Positions 26,412 to 40,875 of a stretch of 64,000 bases of DNA are shown piece by piece. The first letter of the stretch is position 1. Every line of letters starts with the position of its first letter. Below the pieces are notes generated by a model. The model was given only the letters and a program-made list of their open reading frames with translations, ran no database searches and was not told where the DNA came from. Origin of the DNA: Prescottella sp. R16 (GTDB lineage: Bacteria; Actinomycetota; Actinomycetes; Mycobacteriales; Mycobacteriaceae); NCBI RefSeq assembly GCF_030656875.1, contig NZ_CP130943.1:4278001-4342000 (forward strand), read 5' to 3'. Both the position numbers and the translations under genes were made by a program.

Positions 26412-27857
26412 ATGAGCGAGACGGTCATCGTCACCACCCCGATCGCGGAACTGCCCCGAATCCTCGAAGCGCAGAAACGCGCGGCTGTGGAACAGGGTCC
26501 GGCGTCGGCGGAGGTACGACGCGACCGTCTGCAGCGGATGATCGATCTCCTGGTGCGCCACCACAAGTCTCTGACCGAGGCGATCGACGCCGACTTCGAC
26601 GGACGCCTCGCCGCGTACTCGATCATGAACGACATCCTGGGGTCGCTCACGTCGCTCAAGCACACCCGTGATGCGTTCGAGTCGTGGATGGGCGACGACG
26701 AGCGGCCCGCGTTCGCGCCGTACGACCAGTTGGGGGCCAAGGCGTACGTGCAGTACCAGGCCAAGGGATCGGTCGGCATCATCGGCACGTGGAACGCGCC
26801 GCTGTTCACGCTGCTGAGCCCGCTCGCGTGCGCGCTGGGCGCCGGCAACCGGGCGATCCTCAAGCCCTCGGAGATCGTTCCGCGGACCGCGCAGGTCCTG
26901 GCGGACGCCGTCGCCGACGCCTTCGATCCGACCGAGGTCGCCGTCGTCACGGGCGGACCCGATCTGGCGGACACGTTCACATCGCTGCCGTTCGATCACC
27001 TGGTGTTCACGGGCAGCACCGAGGTCGGCAAGCTGGTCATGACCAATGCCGCCAAGAATCTCGTTCCCGTCACCCTCGAACTGGGCGGCAAGTCGCCGAC
27101 GGTCGTGGGCCGCAGCGCCGACCTCGACGCCGCAGCGAACAAGATCGCAATCGCGAAGGCCAGCAACGCGGGTCAGCTGTGCGTCTCCCCCGACGTCGTG
27201 TACGTGCCGCGGGAACACCTCGACACGTTCGTCGAGGCGCTCGAGAAGTCGTATGCGTCGCTGCTGCCGACGGTCACCGACAACCCGGATGTCGTTGCCA
27301 TCGTGAGCGATCGACACCTGGCCCGGGTCGAGGGACTCGTGGCCGACGCCCGTGAACACGGCGCCCTCATCGTCGCCACCCCGGTCGACGAGTCTCCCCG
27401 CGTCGACGGTGACCGCAAGCGGCCGCTGCGCCTGGTGATCTCGCCGCCGGAGGAGTCGAAGATCATGCAGGAGGAGATCTTCGGTCCCGCAGTGATCCTG
27501 CTGCCGTACGACCAGACCGAGGACGTCGTCGCGGACATCAACCGCCGTCCGAAGCCGTTGGCCCTCTACTACTTCGGCACCGACCCGGAGGAGCAGCACG
27601 CGGTCCTGTCGCGGACCAGTTCCGGCGGCGTCACCGTCAACGACGTCATGATGCATCCCGGCATGACCGACGCGCCGTTCGGTGGCGTCGGAGCCTCCGG
27701 CATGGGGCACTACCACGGCCGCGAGGGTTTCCTCGAGTTCAGCCATGCAAGAACGGTTTTCGAGGCACCCGAGCACGATCTGCGCGGCGAATGGGGGACC
27801 CTGCCGCCGCACGGCGAGGGCTTCCTCGAAGCCATGCAGGCTCAGGTCACCCCGTAG
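26412..27857 (+). CDS. Coniferyl-aldehyde-type aldehyde dehydrogenase
   Basis: This 481-aa NAD(P)-dependent aldehyde dehydrogenase lacks a transmembrane tail. The catalytic Glu is in TLELGGKSP (near 222) and the catalytic Cys in GQLCVSPD (near 256); the cofactor loop FTGSTEVGK is near 200. The N-terminal LQRMIDLL-N-EAIDADF layout and the GRAAYSIMND-like segment are typical of the CALDH / FALDH subgroup that oxidises aromatic and fatty aldehydes. AGGAG precedes the ATG. It is followed after 9 nt by a SnoaL-like gene and forms a three-gene run with two SnoaL proteins. Confidence 0.85.
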   Translation: MSETVIVTTPIAELPRILEAQKRAAVEQGPASAEVRRDRLQRMIDLLVRHHKSLTEAIDADFDGRLAAYSIMNDILGSLTSLKHTRDAFESWMGDDERPAFAPYDQLGAKAYVQYQAKGSVGIIGTWNAPLFTLLSPLACALGAGNRAILKPSEIVPRTAQVLADAVADAFDPTEVAVVTGGPDLADTFTSLPFDHLVFTGSTEVGKLVMTNAAKNLVPVTLELGGKSPTVVGRSADLDAAANKIAIAKASNAGQLCVSPDVVYVPREHLDTFVEALEKSYASLLPTVTDNPDVVAIVSDRHLARVEGLVADAREHGALIVATPVDESPRVDGDRKRPLRLVISPPEESKIMQEEIFGPAVILLPYDQTEDVVADINRRPKPLALYYFGTDPEEQHAVLSRTSSGGVTVNDVMMHPGMTDAPFGGVGASGMGHYHGREGFLEFSHARTVFEAPEHDLRGEWGTLPPHGEGFLEAMQAQVTP

Positions 27858-27866
27858 TCTGCGCCC

Positions 27867-28328
27867 ATGACCCGCGAACTCATCGACCGTCTCGCCCTGT
27901 CGGATCTCGTCGCGCAGTACGCGATCGCCGTCGACCGGCGTGACGAGACCGTCCTGGCCGCCCTGTTCACCACCGATGCCCGGCTCGTGCAACCGCCTGA
28001 CCTGGTGCGTCCCGGACGGGATCCGATCCTGTCCGGGGCGGTGGGGATCGCGTCGAGCATCCTCGCAGCCGTCGCACACCTGCACTCGACACGGCACGTC
28101 GTCGCGCAGCAACTCGTCGAGATCACCGGCGACAGCGCGCGCGGCGAGACGTATTGCGAAGCGCATCATATGTATCCGGTCGAGGGGGGACATCGTGACC
28201 ATGTCGTCGCGCTCCGCTACCTCGACGAGTACCACCGGGCCGACGGAGCGTGGCGGATCGCCCGCCGCGAACTGATCGTCGACTTCACCGAGAACCGCAC
28301 CGTAGCCCTACCGAAGAACGGGAAGTGA
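27867..28328 (+). CDS. SnoaL-like protein
   Basis: This 153-aa NTF2-fold protein shows the family layout: DRLALSDLVAQYAIAVDRRD, ALFTTDARLVQP, then a long helix (SSILAAVAHLHSTRH) and strands SARGETYCEAHH and WRIARRELIVDF. The His-rich THRH/EAHH features occur in dehydratase and isomerase members but do not define a reaction. It starts 9 nt after the aldehyde dehydrogenase and ends 4 nt before the next SnoaL gene, so the three are cotranscribed. The ribosome site is weak, so expression may depend on coupling. Confidence 0.65.
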   Translation: MTRELIDRLALSDLVAQYAIAVDRRDETVLAALFTTDARLVQPPDLVRPGRDPILSGAVGIASSILAAVAHLHSTRHVVAQQLVEITGDSARGETYCEAHHMYPVEGGHRDHVVALRYLDEYHRADGAWRIARRELIVDFTENRTVALPKNGK

Positions 28329-28332
28329 TCCG

Positions 28333-28860
28333 ATGACCGAGACCCCGACCGCACAGCTGACCCTGTCTCCCGTCGAGCAACTGCTCGCGATCGAGGAGAT
28401 CAAGAAAGTGTTCGCCGGCCGCCTACGAGTCATGGACACCAAGCAGTGGGATCTCTACGGCAGCTTCCACACCGAGGACGTGGTCAGCGAGACGTGGGGC
28501 GGGCTGCCCGGCGACAAGCAGCCGCAGACGAACGGGACCGGCGGCCGCGTCGTGGGCCGGGAGGCGCTGACGAAGGCGATCAGCGGCATGCTCGGCGGCC
28601 CCACTCCGGTGACGACGGCACACCACGGGCACACCCCGGAGATCACCCTCACCTCCGACACCACTGCCACCGGGATCTGGCCGATGGAGGACGAATTGTG
28701 GTGGACCAACGGTGATGTCGAGGAGCATCTGCACGGCTACGGGCACTACCACGAGGAGTACCGCAAGGTCGGCGACCGGTGGCTCATCAGCTACCGCGCA
28801 CTCACCCGGCTGCGGGAAGTCCACACGCCGAACTTCTTCTCCTACATGAAGGCCCTGTAA
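28333..28860 (+). CDS. SnoaL-like protein
   Basis: This 175-aa NTF2-fold protein has the family layout: AIEEIKKVFAGRLRVMDT, YGSFHTEDVVSETWGG, GREALTKAI, HHGHTPEITLTS, and a final YHEEYRKVGDRWLISYRALTRLR. It differs from its neighbour at 27867-28328 in length and loops, so the pair is not a recent duplication. GGAAGTG precedes the ATG. It is the last gene of the aldehyde dehydrogenase operon and is convergent with the crotonase gene (9 nt between stops). No reaction can be assigned. Confidence 0.65.
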   Translation: MTETPTAQLTLSPVEQLLAIEEIKKVFAGRLRVMDTKQWDLYGSFHTEDVVSETWGGLPGDKQPQTNGTGGRVVGREALTKAISGMLGGPTPVTTAHHGHTPEITLTSDTTATGIWPMEDELWWTNGDVEEHLHGYGHYHEEYRKVGDRWLISYRALTRLREVHTPNFFSYMKAL

Positions 28861-30425: not shown

Positions 30426-31064
30426 CTACGTCAGGTCGACGGCCAGTTCGGTGTCGGTCGCCGCCTGTACCTGGTCGACGGTGACGTCGGGGGCGAGTTC
30501 CCGCAGCACCAGTCCGGTGTCGGTGACGTCGACGACGGCGAGGTTGGTGATGATGCGCTGCACCACCGCCCGACCGGTCAACGGCAGCGTGCACCGCTCG
30601 ACGAGTTTGGCGCCGCCATCGCGGTCGGTGTGTTCCATGACCACGATGACGCGCCGGGCACCGTGCACCAGATCCATGGCACCGCCCATGCCCTTGACCA
30701 TCTTGCCCGGCACCATCCAGTTGGCGAGGTCCCCGGCCGCGGAGACCTGCATGCCACCGAGGACCGCGGTGTCGATGTGGCCACCACGGATCATGCCGAA
30801 CGACAACGCCGAATCGAAGAACGCCGCCCCCGGGTTGACCGTCACGGTTTCCTTGCCGGCGTTGATCAGGTCCGGGTCGACCGCATCCTCGCTCGGGTAC
30901 GGGCCGGTGCCCAGGATGCCGTTCTCCGAATGCAACACCACCTTCACCCCTGCGGGCAGGTAGTTCGGGATCAGGGTCGGCAACCCGATCCCCAGATTCA
31001 CGTACTCGCCGTCGATCATCTCGGCCGCCGCCCGGGCGGCCATCTGTTCCCGTGACCAGCTCAT
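30426..31064 (-). CDS. scoB: 3-oxoacid CoA-transferase subunit B
   Basis: This 212-aa beta subunit of a two-gene SCOT-type CoA-transferase moves CoA from succinyl-CoA to acetoacetate. The active-site glutamate lies in the [10 protein letters not shown] motif (near 46). The conserved segments [13 protein letters not shown] (near 22), [10 protein letters not shown] (near 127) and [13 protein letters not shown] (near 95) are present. The start overlaps the end of scoA by 4 nt (ATGA). It is the last gene of the homogentisate operon, which produces acetoacetate, so SCOT fits better than 3-oxoadipate transferase. Confidence 0.88.
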
Positions 31065-31807
31065 GCCGACACCGTCCGCTTCTCGATCCGCTTGTCCTGG
31101 ATGCCGGTGTGCACCACCCGCTGGACGAACACACCCGGCAGATGCACCTGCGCCGGATCCAACTCGCCCGGGGCGACGAGCTTCTCGACCTGCGCGATCG
31201 TGACCCGGCCCGCCATCGCCGCCAGCGGGTTGAAGTTCATCGCGGTCTTGGCGAACACCAGATTGCCCTCGGTGTCCCCGACCTCGGCGTGCACCAGCGC
31301 ATAGTCCGCGACGATCGACTCCTCGAGCACGAACGTCCTGCCACCGAACTCGCGGGTCTCCTTCGGCGGCGACGCCACCGCCACCGACCCGTCCGGGTGG
31401 TAACGCCACGGCAGACCCCCCTCCGAGACGGGGGTGCCCACCCCGGCCGGGGTGTAGAACGCCGGAATCCCCGCACCCCCGGCCCGCAACCGCTCGGCGA
31501 GCGTGCCCTGCGGGGTCAACTCCACCTCGAGTTCACCCGAGAGGTACTGCCGCGCGAACTCCTTGTTCTCCCCCACATACGACGCCGTCACCCGACGGAT
31601 CCGCCCCGCCGACAACAGCACCCCCAGACCGTGATCGTCCACACCACAATTGTTGGAGAACACCTCGAGCCCCGACACACCCCGATCCGCCAGACCGGAG
31701 ATCAGCTCGGTCGGGATACCGCACAGACCGAACCCACCCACCGCAAGCGACGACCCATCGGCAATGTCGGCGACGGCCTCGGCCGCAGAGTTGTAGACCT
31801 TGCTCAT
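31061..31807 (-). CDS. scoA: 3-oxoacid CoA-transferase subunit A
   Basis: This 248-aa alpha subunit of the SCOT-type transferase shows [18 protein letters not shown] (near 15-32, the CoA-transferase signature), [12 protein letters not shown] (near 51), and the [10 protein letters not shown] loop (near 120). The family length is about 230-250 aa. It overlaps fahA upstream and scoB downstream by 4 nt each, so subunits A and B should be made in equal amounts. It converts the acetoacetate released by FahA to acetoacetyl-CoA for thiolysis. Confidence 0.88.
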
Positions 31808-32997
31808 CGCGCATCACCGGTGGCGGGCAGGATGCGGGCACGGACCTCACCGAAGCCGATGCGTCCGCCGTTCGCGCCGGGCGCGGTCGCGGAGATCGAG
31901 ATCTCGTCGCCGTCCTGGAGGAACGTGCGCTGCTCACCGGCGACCTCGACGGGTTCTGCCCCGCCCCAGGTCAATTCGATGAAGGCGCCGCGCTGGTCCT
32001 TCTCCGGGCCCGAGATGGTGCCGGACCCGAACAGGTCGCCGGTGCTGGCGGCCGCGCCGTTGACGGTGGTGTGCGCCAGCATCTGTGCGGGCGACCAGTA
32101 CATCTGCGCGTACGGCGGACGGGAGACGACGTCACCGTTCCACTCGACCGCGAGATCGATGTCCAGGCCCCACTTCTCGTCACCCTGCAGGTACGGCAGC
32201 GGAGTCGGATCCTGGACCGGGGTGTCGACGCGGGCCGCCTCGAGCGCGAGCAGCGGCACCACCCACGGCGAGATCGACGTTGCGAAGCTCTTGCCGAGGT
32301 TCGGGCCCAGCGGGACGTACTCCCATGCCTGGATGTCGCGGGCCGACCAGTCGTTGAGGATCACGGCACCGAAGCAGTGCTCGGCGAACCGGTCCGGAGT
32401 GATCGAGGAGCCCATCGGCGAACCGACACCGACGATGAAGCCCATCTCGGCCTCGATGTCGAGGCGCAGCGACGGACCGAACGACGGCGTCGCATCGGCC
32501 GGGGCCTTGCGCTGACCGCACGGGCGCACGATGTCGGTGCCCGACACGATGACGGTGCTGGACCGACCGTGGTAGCCGACCGGCAGGTGCTTCCAGTTCG
32601 GCATCAGCGCAGCCGAATCCGGGCGGAACAGCTTGCCGAGGTTGGTCGCGTGGTTCTCCGACGCATAGAAGTCGACGTAGTCCGCGACCGCGATGGGCAG
32701 GTGCATCGTGACGTCACCGACCGCGAACACCGCGTCGTCGGCGATCTCGCCGGTGACGAGTTCGGTGATCTGTGCGCGCACCGCGACCCACCGGTCACGG
32801 CCCTGGGCCATGAACGCGTTGAGCGTCGGCTGGGCAAAGACCTGAGCTTCACTGTCGCCCAGCGCCTTGGCGAGGTCGACGACGCTGTCACCGACACGCA
32901 CACCCACCCGCGGTCCCACGTCGGCGGTCGAGAACACGCCGTAGGGCAGGTTGTCGAGGCCGAACAGGGAATCGGCGGGAATCGAGATGACGGTCAT
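31804..32997 (-). CDS. fahA: Fumarylacetoacetase
   Basis: This 397-aa enzyme hydrolyses 4-fumarylacetoacetate to fumarate and acetoacetate, the last step of the homogentisate branch. Features of two-domain FAH are the N-terminal SH3-like region (to about 110) with FGLDNLPYGVFST, and a catalytic domain with DFYASENHATNLG (near 110-122), YHGRSSTVIVSGTDIVRP (near 142-159), DIEAEMGFIVG (near 182), and the metal-binding NDWSARDIQAWEY (near 213-225). The length is typical of bacterial FAH (about 400 aa). It overlaps both neighbours by ATGA. Confidence 0.92.
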   Translation of the reverse strand: MTVISIPADSLFGLDNLPYGVFSTADVGPRVGVRVGDSVVDLAKALGDSEAQVFAQPTLNAFMAQGRDRWVAVRAQITELVTGEIADDAVFAVGDVTMHLPIAVADYVDFYASENHATNLGKLFRPDSAALMPNWKHLPVGYHGRSSTVIVSGTDIVRPCGQRKAPADATPSFGPSLRLDIEAEMGFIVGVGSPMGSSITPDRFAEHCFGAVILNDWSARDIQAWEYVPLGPNLGKSFATSISPWVVPLLALEAARVDTPVQDPTPLPYLQGDEKWGLDIDLAVEWNGDVVSRPPYAQMYWSPAQMLAHTTVNGAAASTGDLFGSGTISGPEKDQRGAFIELTWGGAEPVEVAGEQRTFLQDGDEISISATAPGANGGRIGFGEVRARILPATGDAR

Positions 32998-33917
32998 GCG
33001 AGGGGTCCTTCCTCGGTCGAGGGGGAATCCACCGAGCCCGTAGGCGCGGAGGGCTCGGTGGATGATCGGGGCACCAGTCCGAGGCCGACCAGTTCGGTCA
33101 GCGGATCGCTGATGCTGCAGGTACCGAACGAGCGGAAACGTGCGCGCAGCACGCCAACCGCTTCGGCCGGGAGCCCGTCGAGGGCAGCCGAGAGACGGGT
33201 TCCGTCACGGTCGGCGAGCGTCGCGGCGATCTCCTCGACGCTCGCACCGTCGGCTGCCCGATGCGTCGCGAGCATGACGTTGAGGAAGCCGTGCTGCTCG
33301 AATCCTGTGTCGGGGTCCGTGTTCCGGATCGCGTGATGCAGGCCGGCGGTCGCCTTGAACCGCACACCGGACGTGACGACGGCGTGGATGGCCGCGGCCA
33401 GTTCGGCCTCGTCCGGGTACGCCTCCGCGACGATGCCGCCGGTGCGGAACTTCGCGGAGTACGCGGTTCCGGCGAGCCGGGACAGGATCTCGGGGCGGCG
33501 CCGGTCGCGCGGAACCTCGACGAAGATCTCCACGCCCGGTGCAGCCGAGGCGATCTCGTCGAGAGCACCGAACAGTGCGTCGGGGGTCTGCCCCGCGGGG
33601 ACCGCGATCTCCATCGCGGCCAGCTTCACGCCGTCGATGGCGCGCAGCTGCTCGAGTGCGGCGGGGACGGCATCGGTGCCGGCGGGCACGGTCAGGCTCA
33701 GCTCGAGCTCGCCGCCCTGGCCGGCCGCCTTCTCGCCGAGGATCGCGGGCAGCTCACCGAGCCGCGGCGCGGGAAATACGAACGGACCGACGAGCGCAGC
33801 GTGGTCGCTGCCCTCGTGCGCGAAGTGCGCCGGCACCGCGACGTCCATCGGCGCGTTCCCCGGGGGGAACAGTGCCGCGTCGTCGCACAGGCCGATCAGC
33901 AACGGGGAGAATCTCAT
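32994..33917 (-). CDS. Unknown protein between hmgA and fahA
   Basis: This 307-aa soluble protein has no signal peptide or membrane segment. I do not recognise a named family. Alternating beta and alpha segments with KFRTGG (near 160), VRFKATAGLHHAIRN (near 185-199) and GFLNVML (near 210) suggest a TIM-barrel-like core; the last 30 residues are a Ser/Thr/Pro-rich tail. The ATG at 33917 overlaps the hmgA stop (ATGA), and the gene end overlaps the fahA start in the same way, so it is made together with both enzymes. It occupies the slot where maleylacetoacetate isomerase is needed, and no GST-like isomerase is seen in the window. Isomerase function is inference only. Confidence 0.75.
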   Translation of the reverse strand: MRFSPLLIGLCDDAALFPPGNAPMDVAVPAHFAHEGSDHAALVGPFVFPAPRLGELPAILGEKAAGQGGELELSLTVPAGTDAVPAALEQLRAIDGVKLAAMEIAVPAGQTPDALFGALDEIASAAPGVEIFVEVPRDRRRPEILSRLAGTAYSAKFRTGGIVAEAYPDEAELAAAIHAVVTSGVRFKATAGLHHAIRNTDPDTGFEQHGFLNVMLATHRAADGASVEEIAATLADRDGTRLSAALDGLPAEAVGVLRARFRSFGTCSISDPLTELVGLGLVPRSSTEPSAPTGSVDSPSTEEGPLA

Positions 33918-35131
33918 TGCGCCGCCTTCGTCCCGGACTGCGGTCCGCGTCCGGACCAGGTCCACGCATAGCCGGGGTCCTCGCACGCCAGCGCACCTTC
34001 ACCGAGTTCGAGCGGGCGGAAGGTGTCGACCATGACCGCCAGCTCGTCGAAGAACTCGACGCCGATGCTGCGCTCGTATGCGCCGGGCTGCGGGCCGTGT
34101 GCGTGGCCGCCGGGGTGGATCGAGATCGAGCCCTGGCCGATACCCGAACCCTTGCGGGCCTCGTAGTCGCCTCCGCAGTAGAACATGATCTCGTCGGAGT
34201 CCACGTTCGAGTGGTAGTACGGCACCGGGATCGACAGCGGGTGGTAGTCGACCTTGCGGGGCACGAAGTTGCAGATGACGAAGTTGTTGCCCTCGAACGC
34301 CTGGTGCGCCGGCGGCGGTTGGTGCACGCGTCCCGTGATGGGCTCGTAGTCGGAGATGTTGAAGGTGTACGGGTACAGGCAGCCGTCCCAGCCGACGACG
34401 TCGAACGGGTGGTCGGGGTACACCATGCGGGTGCCGACGATCGCTCCCCCGGCGCGGTGCTTGACGAGGACCTCGACGTCGGTGCCCTCCGCGATCAACG
34501 GCTCGGTGGGGCCGTGCAGGTCGCGCTCGCAGAACGGCGCGTGCTCGAGGAACTGGCCGAACTTCGACAGGTAACGCTTGGGCGGAACGATGTGACTGTT
34601 CGCCTCGATTGCGTACGCGCGCAACGGCTCCGGGCCCTGCGGCACCCAGCGGTGGGTGGTCGACATCGGGATCAGGACGTAGTCGCCCGGACGGGCGTGC
34701 AGAGCGCCGAACACGGTCTCGACGATCGCCTCGCCGGACTCGACGTACACCATCTCGTCGCCGAGCGAATTGCGGTACAGCGGCGACTCCGTGGCGGAGA
34801 CCACGTACGAGATGCGCACGTCGGCGTTGCCCAGGATCAGCCGACGCCCGGTCACGACGTCGGTCTCGGCCCAGATCTCCTCGGGGAAGAGGTCGTGCAG
34901 CTTCAGGTGCCGCGGCTTGAGCGGGTGGTTCGGGGTGGTGGTCTGGTCGCGCAGCTCCCACACGGTCGCGTCGACGATGGCCGACGGGATGTGGCGGTGG
35001 TACAGCAGCGACGAGTCGGAGGAGAAGCCCTCCTCGCCCATCAACTCCTCGAAGTAGAGCCGGCCTTCCTCGTCCCGGTGCTGGGTGTGACGCTTCGGCG
35101 GAATGCTGCCGAGCTGTCGATAGAACGCCAT
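33914..35131 (-). CDS. hmgA: Homogentisate 1,2-dioxygenase
   Basis: This 405-aa cupin-fold ring-cleavage enzyme converts homogentisate to 4-maleylacetoacetate. Iron ligands fit the family: His in YYHSNVDSDEIMFY (near 300) with the Glu just after, and His in PGGHAHGPQPGA (near 337). The N-terminal FYRQLGSIPPKRHTQHRDE and WDGCLYPYTFNISDYEP (near 252) segments are characteristic of the shorter bacterial HgmA type. It is the first gene of a five-gene operon joined by 4-nt overlaps. A MarR-type palindrome lies about 92 nt upstream of the start, and the marR gene is next upstream. Confidence 0.92.
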   Translation of the reverse strand: MAFYRQLGSIPPKRHTQHRDEEGRLYFEELMGEEGFSSDSSLLYHRHIPSAIVDATVWELRDQTTTPNHPLKPRHLKLHDLFPEEIWAETDVVTGRRLILGNADVRISYVVSATESPLYRNSLGDEMVYVESGEAIVETVFGALHARPGDYVLIPMSTTHRWVPQGPEPLRAYAIEANSHIVPPKRYLSKFGQFLEHAPFCERDLHGPTEPLIAEGTDVEVLVKHRAGGAIVGTRMVYPDHPFDVVGWDGCLYPYTFNISDYEPITGRVHQPPPAHQAFEGNNFVICNFVPRKVDYHPLSIPVPYYHSNVDSDEIMFYCGGDYEARKGSGIGQGSISIHPGGHAHGPQPGAYERSIGVEFFDELAVMVDTFRPLELGEGALACEDPGYAWTWSGRGPQSGTKAAQ

Positions 35132-35381: not shown

Positions 35382-35951
35382 TCAGTTGCGTCCGCGGACG
35401 TCGAACTGGCTGCGGTTGGTGATGAGCTTGTCGAGCAGCATGACGAGAATGTGCTGTTCGGCCTCGGTGAGCACGCTCGCCCACGCGTATTCGCGCTCGT
35501 TGTGCTCCTGATAGGTGGCGGCCATCTCGGCCCGCCCCTTCTCCGTGAGGGACAACTGCACCGAACGTCCGTCGCGCTCGTCGGGTGCGCGTTCGAGCAG
35601 GCCGGACGCCTCCAGCGTCTTCGCCAGGTTCGACACCGCGGCGCGGCTCATGCCGGTGAGCTTGGCGGCGCTCTTCGGTTCGATCGGCCCCGCCAGCCAG
35701 GTCACGAACATCAGACGGAACGCCGACCACGACAGCCCCCGAGGCCGGTGCACGGACGATTCGAGGTCGTAGGTGACGACGTTGGCGGCCCGGTTGAGGG
35801 TCAGTAGGACCTGCGTGGCCAACTGGTGCGTGGAACCGAACTCGGTGCTCAGCCGCCGGTTCGCGAGTTCGATGAACGACCAGAAGTCGAGTGGACCGGG
35901 CGCCGGCGACTCCGCTGCCACCTGCATGCCACCCCCGTCGTCCTCGCTCAT
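35382..35951 (-). CDS. MarR-family regulator of the homogentisate operon
   Basis: This 189-aa MarR-type repressor has an N-terminal dimerisation region (about 15-60), a recognition helix region KSAAKLTGMSRAAVSNLAKT (about 93-112) and the wing APDERDGRSVQLSLTEKG (about 121-138). The ATG at 35951 is the chosen start; the much longer frame upstream has no family sequence. It lies upstream of hmgA in the same direction with a 250-nt gap. Both genes carry the same TAGT-N10-ACTA palindrome, so autoregulation and control of hmgA are likely, with an aromatic-acid ligand. Confidence 0.85.
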   Translation of the reverse strand: MSEDDGGGMQVAAESPAPGPLDFWSFIELANRRLSTEFGSTHQLATQVLLTLNRAANVVTYDLESSVHRPRGLSWSAFRLMFVTWLAGPIEPKSAAKLTGMSRAAVSNLAKTLEASGLLERAPDERDGRSVQLSLTEKGRAEMAATYQEHNEREYAWASVLTEAEQHILVMLLDKLITNRSQFDVRGRN

Positions 35952-36171: not shown

Positions 36172-36855
36172 ATGAGCACGTTGCAGACGCTCGATCGTGG
36201 GCTGCGCGCGCTCGACCTCGTCGCACAGTCGCCGTCCGGGATATCGGTCGCGGATCTGTCCAGGGAACTCGATGTCCACCGGGCCATCTGCTACCGCATC
36301 GTCGCGACACTCGAAGCACACGCGCTGGTCGCCCGTACCGCCGACGGCCGGATCCGGCTCGGCGTCGCCGCGGCCGTCCTCTCCTCACGGTTCGAGCCGC
36401 AGTTCGCCGGAGACGTCCAACCCCTGCTCCACGCCCTCGCCGACGAGACCCGCGCGACGGCATTCGTCTCCGCGGCACAGGGACCGAACTGTGTCGTGAT
36501 CATGGTCGCCGAGCCGGAGGACACCCTGCTGCGTGTCGGCTACCGCGTCGGCAGCAGCCACCCCCTCGACCGCGGTGCCGCAGGAATCGCGATCCTCGCG
36601 CTGCGCCCGGAGACCTCGCGCGACCCGGAAGAAGTCCGCCGGGCCCGCGCCGAGGGCTACAGCCTCACCCGCGGGCAGCTCGAACACGGGGCCGTGGGTA
36701 TCGCGTCGGGCATCGCGCTGCCGGAGGGAACCGGTTCGAGCGCCGGCCTGGAACGCAGCGTCGGAGTCGTCGCGATCGACGGCCTCGACACCGACCGCGC
36801 CGCAGCAGCCGTGATGCGCACGGCCCGCGAGATCGAGCATCTGATCAGCGTCTGA
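36172..36855 (+). CDS. IclR-family transcriptional regulator
   Basis: This 227-aa IclR-type protein has an N-terminal winged helix-turn-helix at about 1-60 (ISVADLSRELDVHRAICYRI). The effector domain follows at about 75-225 with HPLDRGAAGIAIL (near 124) and VGIASGIALPEG (near 178). It is shorter than usual IclR members (about 250 aa), with a compact N-terminus. The ATG at 36172 follows GGGACAC. It lies between marR and the CYP116B gene, reading towards the latter across a 330-nt gap, so the P450-transporter-hydrolase genes are its likely target. Confidence 0.85.
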   Translation: MSTLQTLDRGLRALDLVAQSPSGISVADLSRELDVHRAICYRIVATLEAHALVARTADGRIRLGVAAAVLSSRFEPQFAGDVQPLLHALADETRATAFVSAAQGPNCVVIMVAEPEDTLLRVGYRVGSSHPLDRGAAGIAILALRPETSRDPEEVRRARAEGYSLTRGQLEHGAVGIASGIALPEGTGSSAGLERSVGVVAIDGLDTDRAAAAVMRTAREIEHLISV

Positions 36856-36930
36856 CGCTTCCGCACTCTTCGTCACCCCCTTCCTCTTCCCTCGCATCCC
36901 TCTGCGCACCCCATCTCTGCACGCACCCTC

Positions 36931-36998
36931 CTCGCGATTTGCGCACTTGTCGGGGTGTCGAGAGGTGTCTGCGCAGCGATAAGTGCGCAAATCGCGAG
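36931..36998. repeat. Perfect 18-bp inverted repeat with 32-nt spacer
   Basis: Arms at 36931-36948 and 36981-36998 are exact reverse complements (CTCGCGATTTGCGCACTT and its complement). It lies downstream of iclR and upstream of the P450 promoter. It could be a terminator for iclR, although there is no U-tract, or a dispersed intergenic palindrome. Confidence 0.75.
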
Positions 36999-37068
36999 AC
37001 AGGGGCGACCGATTGAGCCGATTCCCGAGCCCTGGAACAAACCGCCCGCGTGGTTACAGGGAGCGCAC

Positions 37069-37097
37069 TTGACCTCGAATGTGACCGCACTTACTCT
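37069..37097 (+). promoter_or_regulatory. Sigma-A-like promoter of the CYP116B operon
   Basis: TTGACC (37069-37074) and TACTCT (37092-37097) are separated by 17 bp. They lie about 89 nt upstream of the chosen start at 37186. The sequence between the promoter and the gene has the near-palindrome GTTATTAGTAAC, which could bind IclR. Confidence 0.5.
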
Positions 37098-37185
37098 GTG
37101 CGAAGTTCGCTCACCGATACAAGGTGTGCGTTATTAGTAACTTCGCAGCTCAATGCGAGTTTTGAGACAGACGGAGATGCAAGTC

Positions 37186-39486
37186 ATGAGCGCGTGCCCG
37201 ATCGACCACACAGCCCTCCGGAACACGGGCTGCCCGGTTTCCGCGAATGCCGCCGCCTTCGACCCCTTCACCGGCCCGTACCAGGTGGATCCCCCGGCAT
37301 CGCTGCGCTGGTCGCGCGACGAGGAACCGGTGTTCTACAGCCCCACGCTGGGCTACTGGGTGGTGACGCGATACGAAGACGTCAAGGCGGTCTTCCGCGA
37401 CAACATCCTGTTCTCGCCGTCGGTCGTCCTCGAGAAGATCACCCCGGTCTCCGATGAGGCGACGGCTGTGCTCGAGAAGTACGACTACGCGATGTCCCGG
37501 ACTCTCGTGAACGAGGACGAGCCCGCGCACATGCCCCGCCGCCGTGCACTGATGGACCCCTTCACCCCACAGGAACTCGTCCACCACGAACCGATGGTCC
37601 GCCGCCTCACCCGCGAGTACGTCGACCGCTTCGTGGACTCCGGCAAGGCCGACCTCGTCGACGAGATGCTGTGGGAGGTCCCCCTCACCGTCGCCCTGCA
37701 CTTCCTCGGAGTTCCCGAGGAAGACATGGACACGATGCGCAAGTACTCCATCGCACACACCGTCAACACGTGGGGACGCCCGGCGCCCGAGGAACAGGTG
37801 GCCGTCGCCGAGGCCGTCGGCAAGTTCTGGCAGTACGCCGGCCAGGTGCTCGAGAAGATGCGCCAGGATCCGTCCGGACACGGGTGGATGCCGTACGGCA
37901 TCCGCGTCCAGAAGGAACTTCCCGAGGTCGTCACCGACTCCTACCTGCACTCGATGATGATGGCGGGAATCGTTGCGGCACACGAGACCACGGCACACGC
38001 CTCGGCGAACGCCTTCCGCCTGCTGCTCGAGAACCGCAGCGTGTGGGAGGAGATCTGCGCCGATCCGAGCCTGATCCCCAACGCCGTCGAGGAGTGCCTG
38101 CGACATTCGGGCTCGGTCGCGTCCTGGCGCCGACTGGCCACCGCGGACACCACGATCGGCGGCGTCGACATCCCGAAGGGCGCCAAACTGCTGATCGTCA
38201 CGTCGTCGGCGAACCACGACGAACGGCACTTCGAGGGGGCCGACGACTTCGACATCCGCCGCGAGAACTCGAGCGATCACCTCACCTTCGGCTACGGCGG
38301 CCACCAGTGTCTCGGCAAGAACCTCGCCCGCATGGAGATGCAGATCTTCCTCGAGGAACTCACCACCCGCCTGCCGCACATGGAGCTGGTCCCCGACCAG
38401 ACCTTCACCTACCTGCCCAACACCTCGTTCCGCGGGCCGGACCACGTGTGGGTGCAGTGGGACCCTGCCGCGAACCCGGAGCGCACCGAGCCGGCGACCC
38501 TCGAGCGTCGTCAGCCGGTGAAGATCGGTGAGCCGTCCAAGGTTTCGCGCACGGTCACCGTGGACTCCGTCACTCCCGCCGCCGACGGCGTCGTCCGGGT
38601 GACGCTGTCCGATCCGTCGGGCAAGCCGCTGCCGAAGTGGACCCCCGGCTCGCACGTCGACGTCGAACTCGGCGAACTGTCGCGCCAGTACTCGCTGTGC
38701 AGTGACCCGAACGACCTGTCGTACTACGAGATCGCGGTGCTCGAGGAGCCCGAGAGCCGTGGCGGCTCCCGCTACGTGCACCGCACGCTCCGCGCCGGCG
38801 ACACCCTGAAGATGCGCGGGCCGCGCAACCACTTCAGACTCGATCCCGACGCCGAGCGCTACGTGTTCGTGGCGGGTGGCATCGGCATCACACCGATCAT
38901 CGCGATGGCCGACCACGCCAAGACGTCCGGCAAGGACTACGAGATCCACTACTGCGGACGCGATCTCACCACGATGGCGCTGCTCGACCGGCTGACGGCC
39001 GATCACGGCGACCGGCTGACGGTCCACGCGAGTTCGGCCGGCAACCGCCTCGACATCCCGGCCCTGCTCGACGTCCCGGTCGACGGGACCCAGATCTACT
39101 CGTGCGGCCCGGAGCGTCTGCTCGACGCCCTCGAGGAGGCGACCGCGCACTGGCCCGAGGACTCGCTGCGCGTCGAACACTTCACGTCGAACCTGACCAC
39201 GCTCGACCCGGCCGTCGAGCACGCGTTCGAGGTCGAACTGCGCGATTCCGGTCTGACGATCCAGGTCGCCGCCGACCAGACGGTGCTCGACGCCCTGCGT
39301 GCGTCGAACATCGACATCCAGAGCGACTGCGAGGAGGGGCTGTGCGGATCGTGCGAAGCCCCCGTCCTCGACGGCGAGGTGGATCACCGCGACATGGTGC
39401 TCACCAAAACCGAACGGGCCCAGAACAAGTCGATGATGACCTGCTGCTCGCGCGCGTGCGGCACCAAGATCACCCTCGCGCTCTGA
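37186..39486 (+). CDS. Self-sufficient cytochrome P450 (CYP116B / P450RhF type)
   Basis: This 766-aa three-domain monooxygenase carries its whole electron chain. The P450 domain (about 1-425) has the I-helix motif AAHETT (near 270), ExxR in EECLRH (near 302), and the heme loop FGYGGHQCLG with the cysteine ligand (near 382). The FMN reductase domain (about 440-665) has RQYSLCS for FMN and GGIGITP for NADH/NADPH. The C-terminal 2Fe-2S ferredoxin domain (about 680-766) has C-EEGL-C-GS-C and a distal Cys in MMTCCSRA. Long stretches match my memory of P450RhF (CYP116B2, 773 aa). The ATG at 37186 has GGAG 9 nt upstream. It probably hydroxylates or dealkylates aromatic ethers; the natural substrate is unknown. 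Confidence 0.93.
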   Translation: MSACPIDHTALRNTGCPVSANAAAFDPFTGPYQVDPPASLRWSRDEEPVFYSPTLGYWVVTRYEDVKAVFRDNILFSPSVVLEKITPVSDEATAVLEKYDYAMSRTLVNEDEPAHMPRRRALMDPFTPQELVHHEPMVRRLTREYVDRFVDSGKADLVDEMLWEVPLTVALHFLGVPEEDMDTMRKYSIAHTVNTWGRPAPEEQVAVAEAVGKFWQYAGQVLEKMRQDPSGHGWMPYGIRVQKELPEVVTDSYLHSMMMAGIVAAHETTAHASANAFRLLLENRSVWEEICADPSLIPNAVEECLRHSGSVASWRRLATADTTIGGVDIPKGAKLLIVTSSANHDERHFEGADDFDIRRENSSDHLTFGYGGHQCLGKNLARMEMQIFLEELTTRLPHMELVPDQTFTYLPNTSFRGPDHVWVQWDPAANPERTEPATLERRQPVKIGEPSKVSRTVTVDSVTPAADGVVRVTLSDPSGKPLPKWTPGSHVDVELGELSRQYSLCSDPNDLSYYEIAVLEEPESRGGSRYVHRTLRAGDTLKMRGPRNHFRLDPDAERYVFVAGGIGITPIIAMADHAKTSGKDYEIHYCGRDLTTMALLDRLTADHGDRLTVHASSAGNRLDIPALLDVPVDGTQIYSCGPERLLDALEEATAHWPEDSLRVEHFTSNLTTLDPAVEHAFEVELRDSGLTIQVAADQTVLDALRASNIDIQSDCEEGLCGSCEAPVLDGEVDHRDMVLTKTERAQNKSMMTCCSRACGTKITLAL

Positions 39487-39528
39487 CCCACCTCTCCAGA
39501 ATCTTCTCAGCACCCGAAAGGATCCGTC

Positions 39529-40875
39529 ATGGGATCTCCGACCCTCACCGGACCCGCCGTCCCCGGCTCGTCCGCGAGCGCACAGCCACCCCGATCCAGC
39601 TTCAAGCGTGTCCTCACCGGCAGCATGGCCGGTGCGGTTCTCGAGTGGTACGACTTCGCGATCTACGGCATCCTCGCCGCCACCGTCCTGGGCCCACTGT
39701 TCTTCCCCGGTGACAGCGGCGTCGCGAAGCTGCTGCTGGCGCTCGCGACGCAGGGCCTCGGTTTCGTCGCACGCCCGCTGGGCGGCATCGTCTTCGGTCA
39801 TCTGGGCGACAAGTTCGGCCGCAAGCCGATGTTGGTCGCGACGTTCATCATGCTGGGTACCGCGACCGCGGCGATCGGCCTGCTGCCCACGTACGACCAG
39901 ATCGGTATCTGGGCGACGGTCATGCTGGTGGTGCTGCGCATGATCCAGGGCTTTGCACTCGGCGGCGAGTTCGGTGCCGCGGTGCTGCTGGTCAGCGAGT
40001 ACGGCGAACCCAAGAAGCGCGGTTTCTGGGCGTCGTGGCCGCAGGCCGGCGCGCCGATGGGCACCGTCCTGGCGACGGTCGTGGTGTCGGTGCTCGGCGT
40101 CTTCCTCTCCGACGACGCATTCGACCAGTGGGGCTGGCGTGTGGCCTTCCTGTTCGCGATCCCGCTGCTGATCGTCGGATTCTGGGTGCGCCGCGGCGTC
40201 GAGGAGTCCCCGGTGTTCAAGGCTGCGCAGGAGCAGGCCGCGAAGGCTCCTGCAGCACAGGAACGTTCGAGCATCCTCGAGGCCCTCGCGCATCCGCGCG
40301 CGGTACTGACCGGCCTGGGCATGCGTCTCGGCGAGAACATCGCGTTCTACGTCTACACGGTCTTCGTGATCGCATACGCCACCACGTACTTCGACTTCCA
40401 TCGCGGCGACATCATCCTGGCCGTGACGTTCGCGTCGCTGTTCCAGTTCGTCGGCATGATCGGCGGTGGCGCATGGTCCGACCGGGTCGGCCGCAAGACC
40501 GCGATGCTCGTGCCCGCGATCGTCCTCGTGGCGTGGGCACCGGTGTTCTTCTGGCTGGTCCAGCTCGAGAGCCTGCCGATGCTGTGGCTCGGTGTGTGCG
40601 TGGGCGCGTTCTTCCACGGCATGCTCGCCGGCCCGGAGGCCGCATGGATCACCGAACTGTTCCCCACCCGCTACCGGTACGCCGGTTCGTCGCTGGTGTT
40701 CCAGGGCTCGTCGATCATCGCCGGTGCGCCGGCCCCGTTCATCGCGGTCTGGCTCATCGAGAACTTCGGTGTCGGTATGGTCGTCGGCTACCTGGTGGTC
40801 ACGATGGCGATCACAGTGGTCGCCCTCGCGTTCAGCCGGGAAACCAAGGGCGTGGATCTCGACGACGTCGCATGA
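39529..40875 (+). CDS. MHS-family major facilitator transporter
   Basis: This 448-aa, 12-helix MFS protein belongs to the metabolite:H+ symporter (MHS) family. A hydrophilic 25-residue N-terminus precedes SMAGAVLEWYDFAIYG, the classic MHS first helix. The loop 2-3 motif GHLGDKFGRKP is near 88, and RMIQGFALGGEFGAA near 138 is also family-typical. It follows the P450 by 42 nt with no terminator and precedes the hydrolase gene. It probably imports the organic acid, or other substrate, handled by the P450; MHS members carry aromatic acids, dicarboxylates and osmolytes. Confidence 0.85.
   Translation: MGSPTLTGPAVPGSSASAQPPRSSFKRVLTGSMAGAVLEWYDFAIYGILAATVLGPLFFPGDSGVAKLLLALATQGLGFVARPLGGIVFGHLGDKFGRKPMLVATFIMLGTATAAIGLLPTYDQIGIWATVMLVVLRMIQGFALGGEFGAAVLLVSEYGEPKKRGFWASWPQAGAPMGTVLATVVVSVLGVFLSDDAFDQWGWRVAFLFAIPLLIVGFWVRRGVEESPVFKAAQEQAAKAPAAQERSSILEALAHPRAVLTGLGMRLGENIAFYVYTVFVIAYATTYFDFHRGDIILAVTFASLFQFVGMIGGGAWSDRVGRKTAMLVPAIVLVAWAPVFFWLVQLESLPMLWLGVCVGAFFHGMLAGPEAAWITELFPTRYRYAGSSLVFQGSSIIAGAPAPFIAVWLIENFGVGMVVGYLVVTMAITVVALAFSRETKGVDLDDVA

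Follow-up and report, generated by a model that had tools for sequence, protein, structure and literature searches.

How maleylacetoacetate is converted into fumarylacetoacetate in bacteria with no recognisable isomerase gene is the question raised by a homogentisate operon of Prescottella sp. R16, located in a stretch of 64,000 nucleotides (contig NZ_CP130943.1, positions 4,278,001 to 4,342,000; hereafter the window). Maleylacetoacetate is a cis-enedione acid, and the known isomerase adds the thiol of glutathione to its double bond, after which the bond turns and the thiol is expelled. The operon, on the minus strand, has the order hmgA-X-fahA-scoA-scoB, where X is the name used here for its unnamed second gene and the product of that gene; the ATGA overlaps that the original prediction had described were read directly at all four junctions. 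A chance or mis-called open reading frame was ruled out for X, which is conserved, in frame and ATGA-linked. The lack of a MaiA-type gene, previously noted for the window, extends to the entire genome, an assembly of 4.57 Mb and two contigs (completeness 100, contamination 2.49), in which the GST-zeta isomerase model TIGR01262 gave no match at E≤10. As a gene for 4-hydroxyphenylpyruvate dioxygenase lies 12 kb past the window end, this genome together with the operon covers the route from 4-hydroxyphenylpyruvate to acetoacetyl-CoA except for a recognisable isomerase. Considering the operon, the co-occurrence data, the predicted fold and the invariant residues, we think it probable that X is a glutathione-independent maleylacetoacetate isomerase, which would turn the maleylacetoacetate made by HmgA from cis to trans into the fumarylacetoacetate used by FahA without glutathione, that is, the reaction and the slot of MaiA/HmgC (GST zeta class). 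The interpretation of X proposed in the original prediction is partly supported by our data, isomerase being the best inference.

The two flanking enzymes differ in how easily they are recognised. The fahA product scored 460 bits with TIGR01266 (cut-off 375.3) and aligned with a solved fumarylacetoacetase at E 1.1e-114. HmgA was above the cut-offs of the Pfam families HgmA_N and HgmA_C and aligned with two homogentisate dioxygenases of solved structure, 1ey2 (E 5.6e-9) and 3zds, and it reached only 60 bits with TIGR01015, below its cut-off of 510.75. Judged by its sequence, the hmgA product is a divergent member of the wider homogentisate dioxygenase family, and annotation based on TIGR01015 only would miss an HmgA of this Gram-positive type.

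The association of X with these two genes is not by chance. Of 80 GTDB loci retrieved with X as the only query, 78 contain fahA and 73 contain hmgA (including L084, where the hmgA match is weak, with 27% identity, and on the other strand). In an even phylum sample of 149 genomes, X was found in nine, all of which have fahA over the cut-off, versus 14 of the 149 overall. In a class sample of 246 genomes (thresholds E≤1e-5 for X, E≤1e-60 for fahA and E≤1e-20 for MaiA), X was found in 77, fahA in 130 and both in 74, with a Fisher p value of 6.7e-23 that is uncorrected for shared ancestry, and in 71 of these 74 genomes fahA lies directly downstream of X on the same strand, less than 1 kb away. There are three genomes with X but no fahA: G185, where X is at a contig end with hmgA beside it on the opposite strand, and G250 and G306, whose X copies lack Lys156, Lys188 and Cys267. 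Seven X-fahA loci have no adjacent canonical hmgA, and six of these genomes (L042, L045, L053, L055, L056 and L067) contain a strong hmgA elsewhere, with 65-78% identity. The genome of L058, in which X stands alone, has a weak hmgA (30% identity).

The link of X to the pathway that had been proposed for this operon holds in Actinomycetota, Bacillota and a cyanobacterium, the contexts in Bacillota and Cyanobacteriota being drawn from plasmids only. Two Priestia plasmids (six records matched, of which two were read) carry a single run of hppD, X, fahA, a hisC-type aminotransferase gene, hmgA and an amino acid permease gene, in which X is the sole unnamed gene and the isomerase the sole unassigned step of a complete tyrosine route. 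On a Kovacikia plasmid (Cyanobacteriota), hmgA and an hppD-like gene share one strand, and X-fahA, joined by an ATGA overlap, occupies the other. Furthermore, a Pseudonocardia plasmid contains a compact hmgA-X-fahA set between insertion elements, and plasmids of Streptomyces (two), Rhodococcus and Tsukamurella contain hmgA-X-fahA, cupin-X-fahA or X-fahA.

These contexts bear on the possibility that the isomerase is a mycothiol-dependent protein of the DinB fold (MDMPI) encoded elsewhere, with X having another role in the operon. MDMPI-type enzymes isomerise maleylpyruvate in corynebacteria, which is a glutathione-free isomerisation of a maleyl-keto acid like the one proposed here, and the genome of the window has 12 MDMPI_N matches, 10 of them over the cut-off. 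None of the 12 is within the window, however, and the four searched neighbours of the two best matches are iron-type transport proteins, a peptidase S51 and a DUF488 protein. A small home-made profile (the seed plus three sequences) was run at E≤1 against the two Priestia loci, the Kovacikia locus and 26 fahA loci without X (see below), and none of them contained an MDMPI-like frame. In addition, Bacillota and Cyanobacteriota, which are not known to make mycothiol, keep X in the same slot, and we regard an MDMPI protein as an unlikely solution. On a Streptomyces plasmid, a protein annotated as containing a maleylpyruvate isomerase N-terminal domain (L127:1289-1945, minus strand) is encoded about 4 kb from X-fahA.

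X is a genuine operon protein that is well conserved, and its family is unnamed and widespread in bacteria. It gave no match to Pfam or NCBIfam (E≤1) or to PDB sequences. Across 43 diverse members, the 13 Pfam and six NCBIfam matches at E≤1 each occurred in a single member (best E 0.035), and a profile search of the PDB sequences with the X family returned five matches, all unrelated (best E 0.17). Neither X nor the 43 members matched TIGR01262, a GST-type family or PF11716 (MDMPI_N), which rules out X as a member of the GST-zeta or MDMPI families; both also differ from its predicted TIM barrel in their folds, GST and DinB, respectively. Relatives at E≤0.001 numbered at least 8000 of 8000 scored candidates with a Priestia member as the query, at least 5851 of 7995 with an Acidimicrobiia-type member and at least 1830 of 7999 with the X of the window, and the three sets overlap. 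The names, taken from the best 120 of each set, included Rhodococcus, Prescottella, Nocardia, Gordonia, Acidimicrobiia, Priestia, Bacillus, Paenibacillus, Brevibacillus, Aneurinibacillus and a Roseiflexaceae bacterium. Among the named matches listed the annotation is mostly 'hypothetical protein', and a few have automatically assigned names, for example Transaldolase (P0038, P0088 and P0099), SUKH-4 family immunity protein (P0006) or Glutamate--cysteine ligase (P0278). X also occurs in R. jostii NBRC 16295 (L016), which suggests that the laboratory strain R. jostii RHA1 has it too.

The TIM-barrel character that had been read from the sequence pattern of X was borne out by a structure model (pLDDT 92), a barrel of the type of deoxyribose-phosphate aldolase (DERA), and the nearest solved folds are aldolases with DERA as the first of them. 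The companion profile-profile comparison of X with DERA and other aldolases gave no significant link, so the aldolase relationship is drawn from the predicted structure and the motif spacing only. Neither X nor the 43 members matched TIGR00126 or the Pfam family of DERA, X has SFGTCS where L118 and L119 have RFGASS and TAGLHH where these have PAGGIR, and the genome of the window encodes its own DERA elsewhere. In an alignment of 54 members (from Actinomycetota and Bacillota, with one Chloroflexota protein), Asp12, Glu103, Glu134, Lys156, Arg158, Lys188, His194 and Cys267 are invariant, as are Pro18, Pro19, Gly160, Gly161, Thr190, Gly192, His195, Arg258, Gly265 and others. The first eight are located on or just past strands 1, 4, 5, 6, 7 and 8 of the model, with Lys156 on strand 6 (154-158), Lys188 on strand 7 (187-190) and Cys267 where strand 8 ends. 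Lys156 and Lys188 may correspond to the two catalytic lysines of DERA, which are on strands 6 and 7.

The residues were also tallied in 106 X sequences from the fetched loci, 101 of them linked (up to 2.5 kb from fahA or hmgA) and five unlinked. Lys156, Lys188 and Cys267 are all kept in 99 of the 101 linked sequences, most of which were selected by similarity to X, versus three of the five unlinked copies without Lys188 and Cys267, two of these also without Lys156. This difference suggests, at the level of sequence, that the three residues matter for the role of X in the pathway. One of the two linked exceptions, L163, has lost Lys188 and is a second copy in a genome with another X-fahA pair. 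As a separate observation, the off-pathway relatives lacking Lys188 and Cys267 (two of them Lys156 as well), at L156:6357-7412 (plus strand), L157:6777-7838 (minus strand) and L162:6295-7389 (minus strand), have neighbours that resemble secreted proteins by eye, and they have possibly been reused for another purpose.

How X could catalyse the isomerisation is a more tentative matter. It might be a new kind of isomerase, an aldolase-like barrel with its own thiol, although we consider this particular mechanism less likely than not. With an active site laid out in the TIM barrel like that of a class I aldolase, Lys156 would make an imine with the C4 ketone of maleylacetoacetate and Lys188 would tune it by lowering its pKa, as a second lysine does in DERA. 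The imine would render the cis C2=C3 bond electrophilic, and an internal nucleophile, most likely Cys267, would add to it reversibly in place of the thiol of glutathione; the single bond could then rotate and the nucleophile leave, while the acidic residues and His194 would move protons or hold the carboxylates. A plain imine-dienamine route in which Cys267 takes no part is also possible. If the lysine-cysteine mechanism is true, bacteria without glutathione would need no thiol cofactor for this step since X would bring its own internal thiol, and the family concerned would comprise thousands of so far unnamed members from Actinomycetota, Bacillota, Cyanobacteriota and Chloroflexota.

An aldolase-like barrel could also suggest that X, in parallel to FahA, hydrolyses maleylacetoacetate directly into maleate and acetoacetate or carries out a retro-aldol reaction on it, and an activity of this kind was reported in Bacillus (Crawford 1976, as cited in PMC4457819). 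Nevertheless, the fumarylacetoacetase, whose gene adjoins X in 71 of 74 genomes, would then have no obvious substrate, and we give this explanation very little weight. Even more improbable is a non-catalytic X, a scaffold or a regulator that binds an intermediate; relatives without the key residues do persist elsewhere, as does the operon copy of L096 described below, but acidic, lysine, histidine and cysteine residues that are invariant at the ends of barrel strands in 54 members point to catalysis.

Several observations weigh against X being the isomerase, in addition to the null profile comparison and the way in which most linked sequences were selected. X diverges faster than its neighbours (in L014 the identity is 58% for X, 88% for HmgA and 80% for FahA), and the genome of L084, the seventh of the X-fahA loci without an adjacent canonical hmgA, gave no match to hmgA at E≤1e-10. 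Two of the five unlinked copies, L058 and L159, retain all the residues, and L096 (5902-6924, plus strand), the second linked exception, carries K156A, H194D and C267R in a genuine hmgA-X-fahA operon, which is unexplained. In the Bacillus anthracis operon hppD-hmgB-hmgA, as described in PMC4457819, hmgB and hmgA overlap by 34 nt and no gene occupies the slot of X. Furthermore, 56 of the 130 fahA genomes of the class sample have neither X nor MaiA at the thresholds given above. The surveys gave a mixed picture of whether X accompanies hmgA and fahA precisely where maiA is lacking. The X-fahA association is strong, and the absence of MaiA is in favour of X as the isomerase. MaiA was found over the cut-off in none of the 149 phylum-sample genomes, 15 of which (including the X carrier G117) gave weak GST-like matches (50 and 43 bits vs a cut-off of 171 in G117), and at E≤1e-20 in none of the 246 class-sample genomes, so that with no MaiA carrier in either sample the surveys are silent on a replacement of MaiA by X.

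We have looked at 26 fahA loci without X, which comprise 20 (L135-L154) from 19 of the 56 genomes, three (L089-L091) from three more of them and three (L092-L094) from the phylum survey, the fahA of L094 being below the cut-off. hmgA is present in 14 of these loci, and in eight (L138, L142, L143, L145, L147, L150, L152 and L154), all from genomes without MaiA at E≤1e-20, it lies at most about 160 bp upstream of fahA on the same strand with X absent. Some lineages thus appear to manage the pathway without X, which counts against a general need for it. In these eight, maleylacetoacetate might be hydrolysed directly or handled by yet another isomerase, and more generally the lineages without X would isomerise by another enzyme or a free thiol, or hydrolyse maleylacetoacetate directly. 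No shared replacement gene stands out beside fahA in the 26 loci (neighbours tabulated for 20), in six of which fahA had been missed by the open reading frame caller; the widest neighbour clusters were FahA (20), HmgA (11), a glyoxalase-domain protein that is probably hppD (9), an ABC-type ATPase (6) and an Lrp/AsnC regulator (6). A wider profile found no X in six of the fahA genomes without it (best E 0.064). On a tree of 122 FahA proteins, 11 changes account for the distribution of X, compared with 23.9 in shuffles, and because 77 of the 96 X-positive rows were selected by similarity to X, we take from the tree no more than that X seems to be old and to have been lost several times. These loci weaken the claim that X is required, not the claim that X does this reaction where it is present.

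The many genomes with hmgA and fahA but without X or MaiA speak for X being an accessory enzyme, which would clear or repair a reactive by-product or act on maleyl- or fumarylacetoacetate in a tautomeric or lactone form, with the isomerisation occurring spontaneously, being assisted by a thiol or being circumvented by direct hydrolysis of maleylacetoacetate. A class I aldolase-like barrel suits carbon-carbon chemistry on beta-diketones, a glutathione-dependent non-enzymatic bypass is cited in a review (PMC9338888), and a Bacillus activity yielding maleate and acetoacetate is cited both there and in PMC4457819. On the other hand, X completes a compact three-gene set and belongs to a complete Priestia route whose sole gap is the isomerase, and we would expect so strict a linkage across phyla to be unusual for an accessory gene. 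We consider the accessory role a minority possibility, less probable than X being the isomerase itself.

Cis-trans isomerisation by a cysteine of the enzyme, not by glutathione, is a feature of maleate isomerase of the Asp/Glu racemase superfamily, whose fold and substrate differ from those proposed for X. For maleylacetoacetate, the review mentioned above refers to a Bacillus strain with an activity that does not depend on glutathione (PMC9338888). In the 2015 study of B. anthracis hmgA it was stated that 'a gene encoding maleylacetoacetate isomerase ... cannot be identified', and more work was called for on what becomes of the intermediate (PMC4457819). X would not fill the B. anthracis operon, but that statement shows that the isomerase question is open. 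In the proteomics of Rhodococcus globerulus grown on 2-hydroxyphenylacetate or phenylalanine, section 3.8 names HmgA and HmgB and no isomerase (PMC11889516). Among the titles and abstract openings listed by searches of open-licence PubMed Central papers, we found none naming the X family or a glutathione-free maleylacetoacetate isomerase gene. If X is this isomerase, it would provide a gene for a step that lacks one in many Gram-positive bacteria, a gap long noted, as well as a function for a large family without a Pfam or NCBIfam model, and it would show how a reaction for which glutathione is usually needed can proceed without a cofactor. Models of how Rhodococcus, Streptomyces and bacilli degrade tyrosine, phenylalanine and aromatic compounds derived from lignin would improve as well.

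Table 1. Coordinates of the homogentisate operon and neighbouring features in the window
Feature	Position	Strand	Remarks
X, candidate glutathione-independent maleylacetoacetate isomerase	32994..33917	-	307 aa, ATG to TGA, predicted TIM barrel
hmgA, divergent homogentisate 1,2-dioxygenase	33914..35131	-	405 aa; PF20510 and PF04209 over cut-off
fahA, fumarylacetoacetase	31804..32997	-	397 aa; TIGR01266 over cut-off
scoA, 3-oxoacid CoA-transferase subunit A	31061..31807	-	would activate acetoacetate; TIGR02429 over cut-off
scoB, 3-oxoacid CoA-transferase subunit B	30426..31064	-	PF01144; ATGA overlap with scoA
MarR-type regulator	35382..35951	-	upstream of operon; PF12802/PF01047 over cut-off (searched as 35382-35948)
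P450-reductase-ferredoxin fusion	37153..39486	+	P450 and 2Fe-2S domains in a single chain; CYP116B-like by analogy
Aldehyde dehydrogenase	26412-27857		PF00171

The surroundings of the operon are listed in Table 1. The start codon of the MarR-type regulator is at 35951, and a MarR-type homologue was found in 59 of the 80 GTDB X loci, anywhere in the locus and on either strand. An IclR regulator, the P450-reductase-ferredoxin fusion and an MFS transporter, at 36172-40875 on the plus strand, adjoin the homogentisate operon. By analogy with CYP116B234 of R. globerulus, as presented in PMC11889516, the fusion protein could be a source of homogentisate from 2-hydroxyphenylacetate, and the whole segment is possibly a module for this conversion. 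Finally, two adjoining small open reading frames at 27867-28860 on the plus strand, of the SnoaL/NTF2 type by eye, lie beside the aldehyde dehydrogenase gene.

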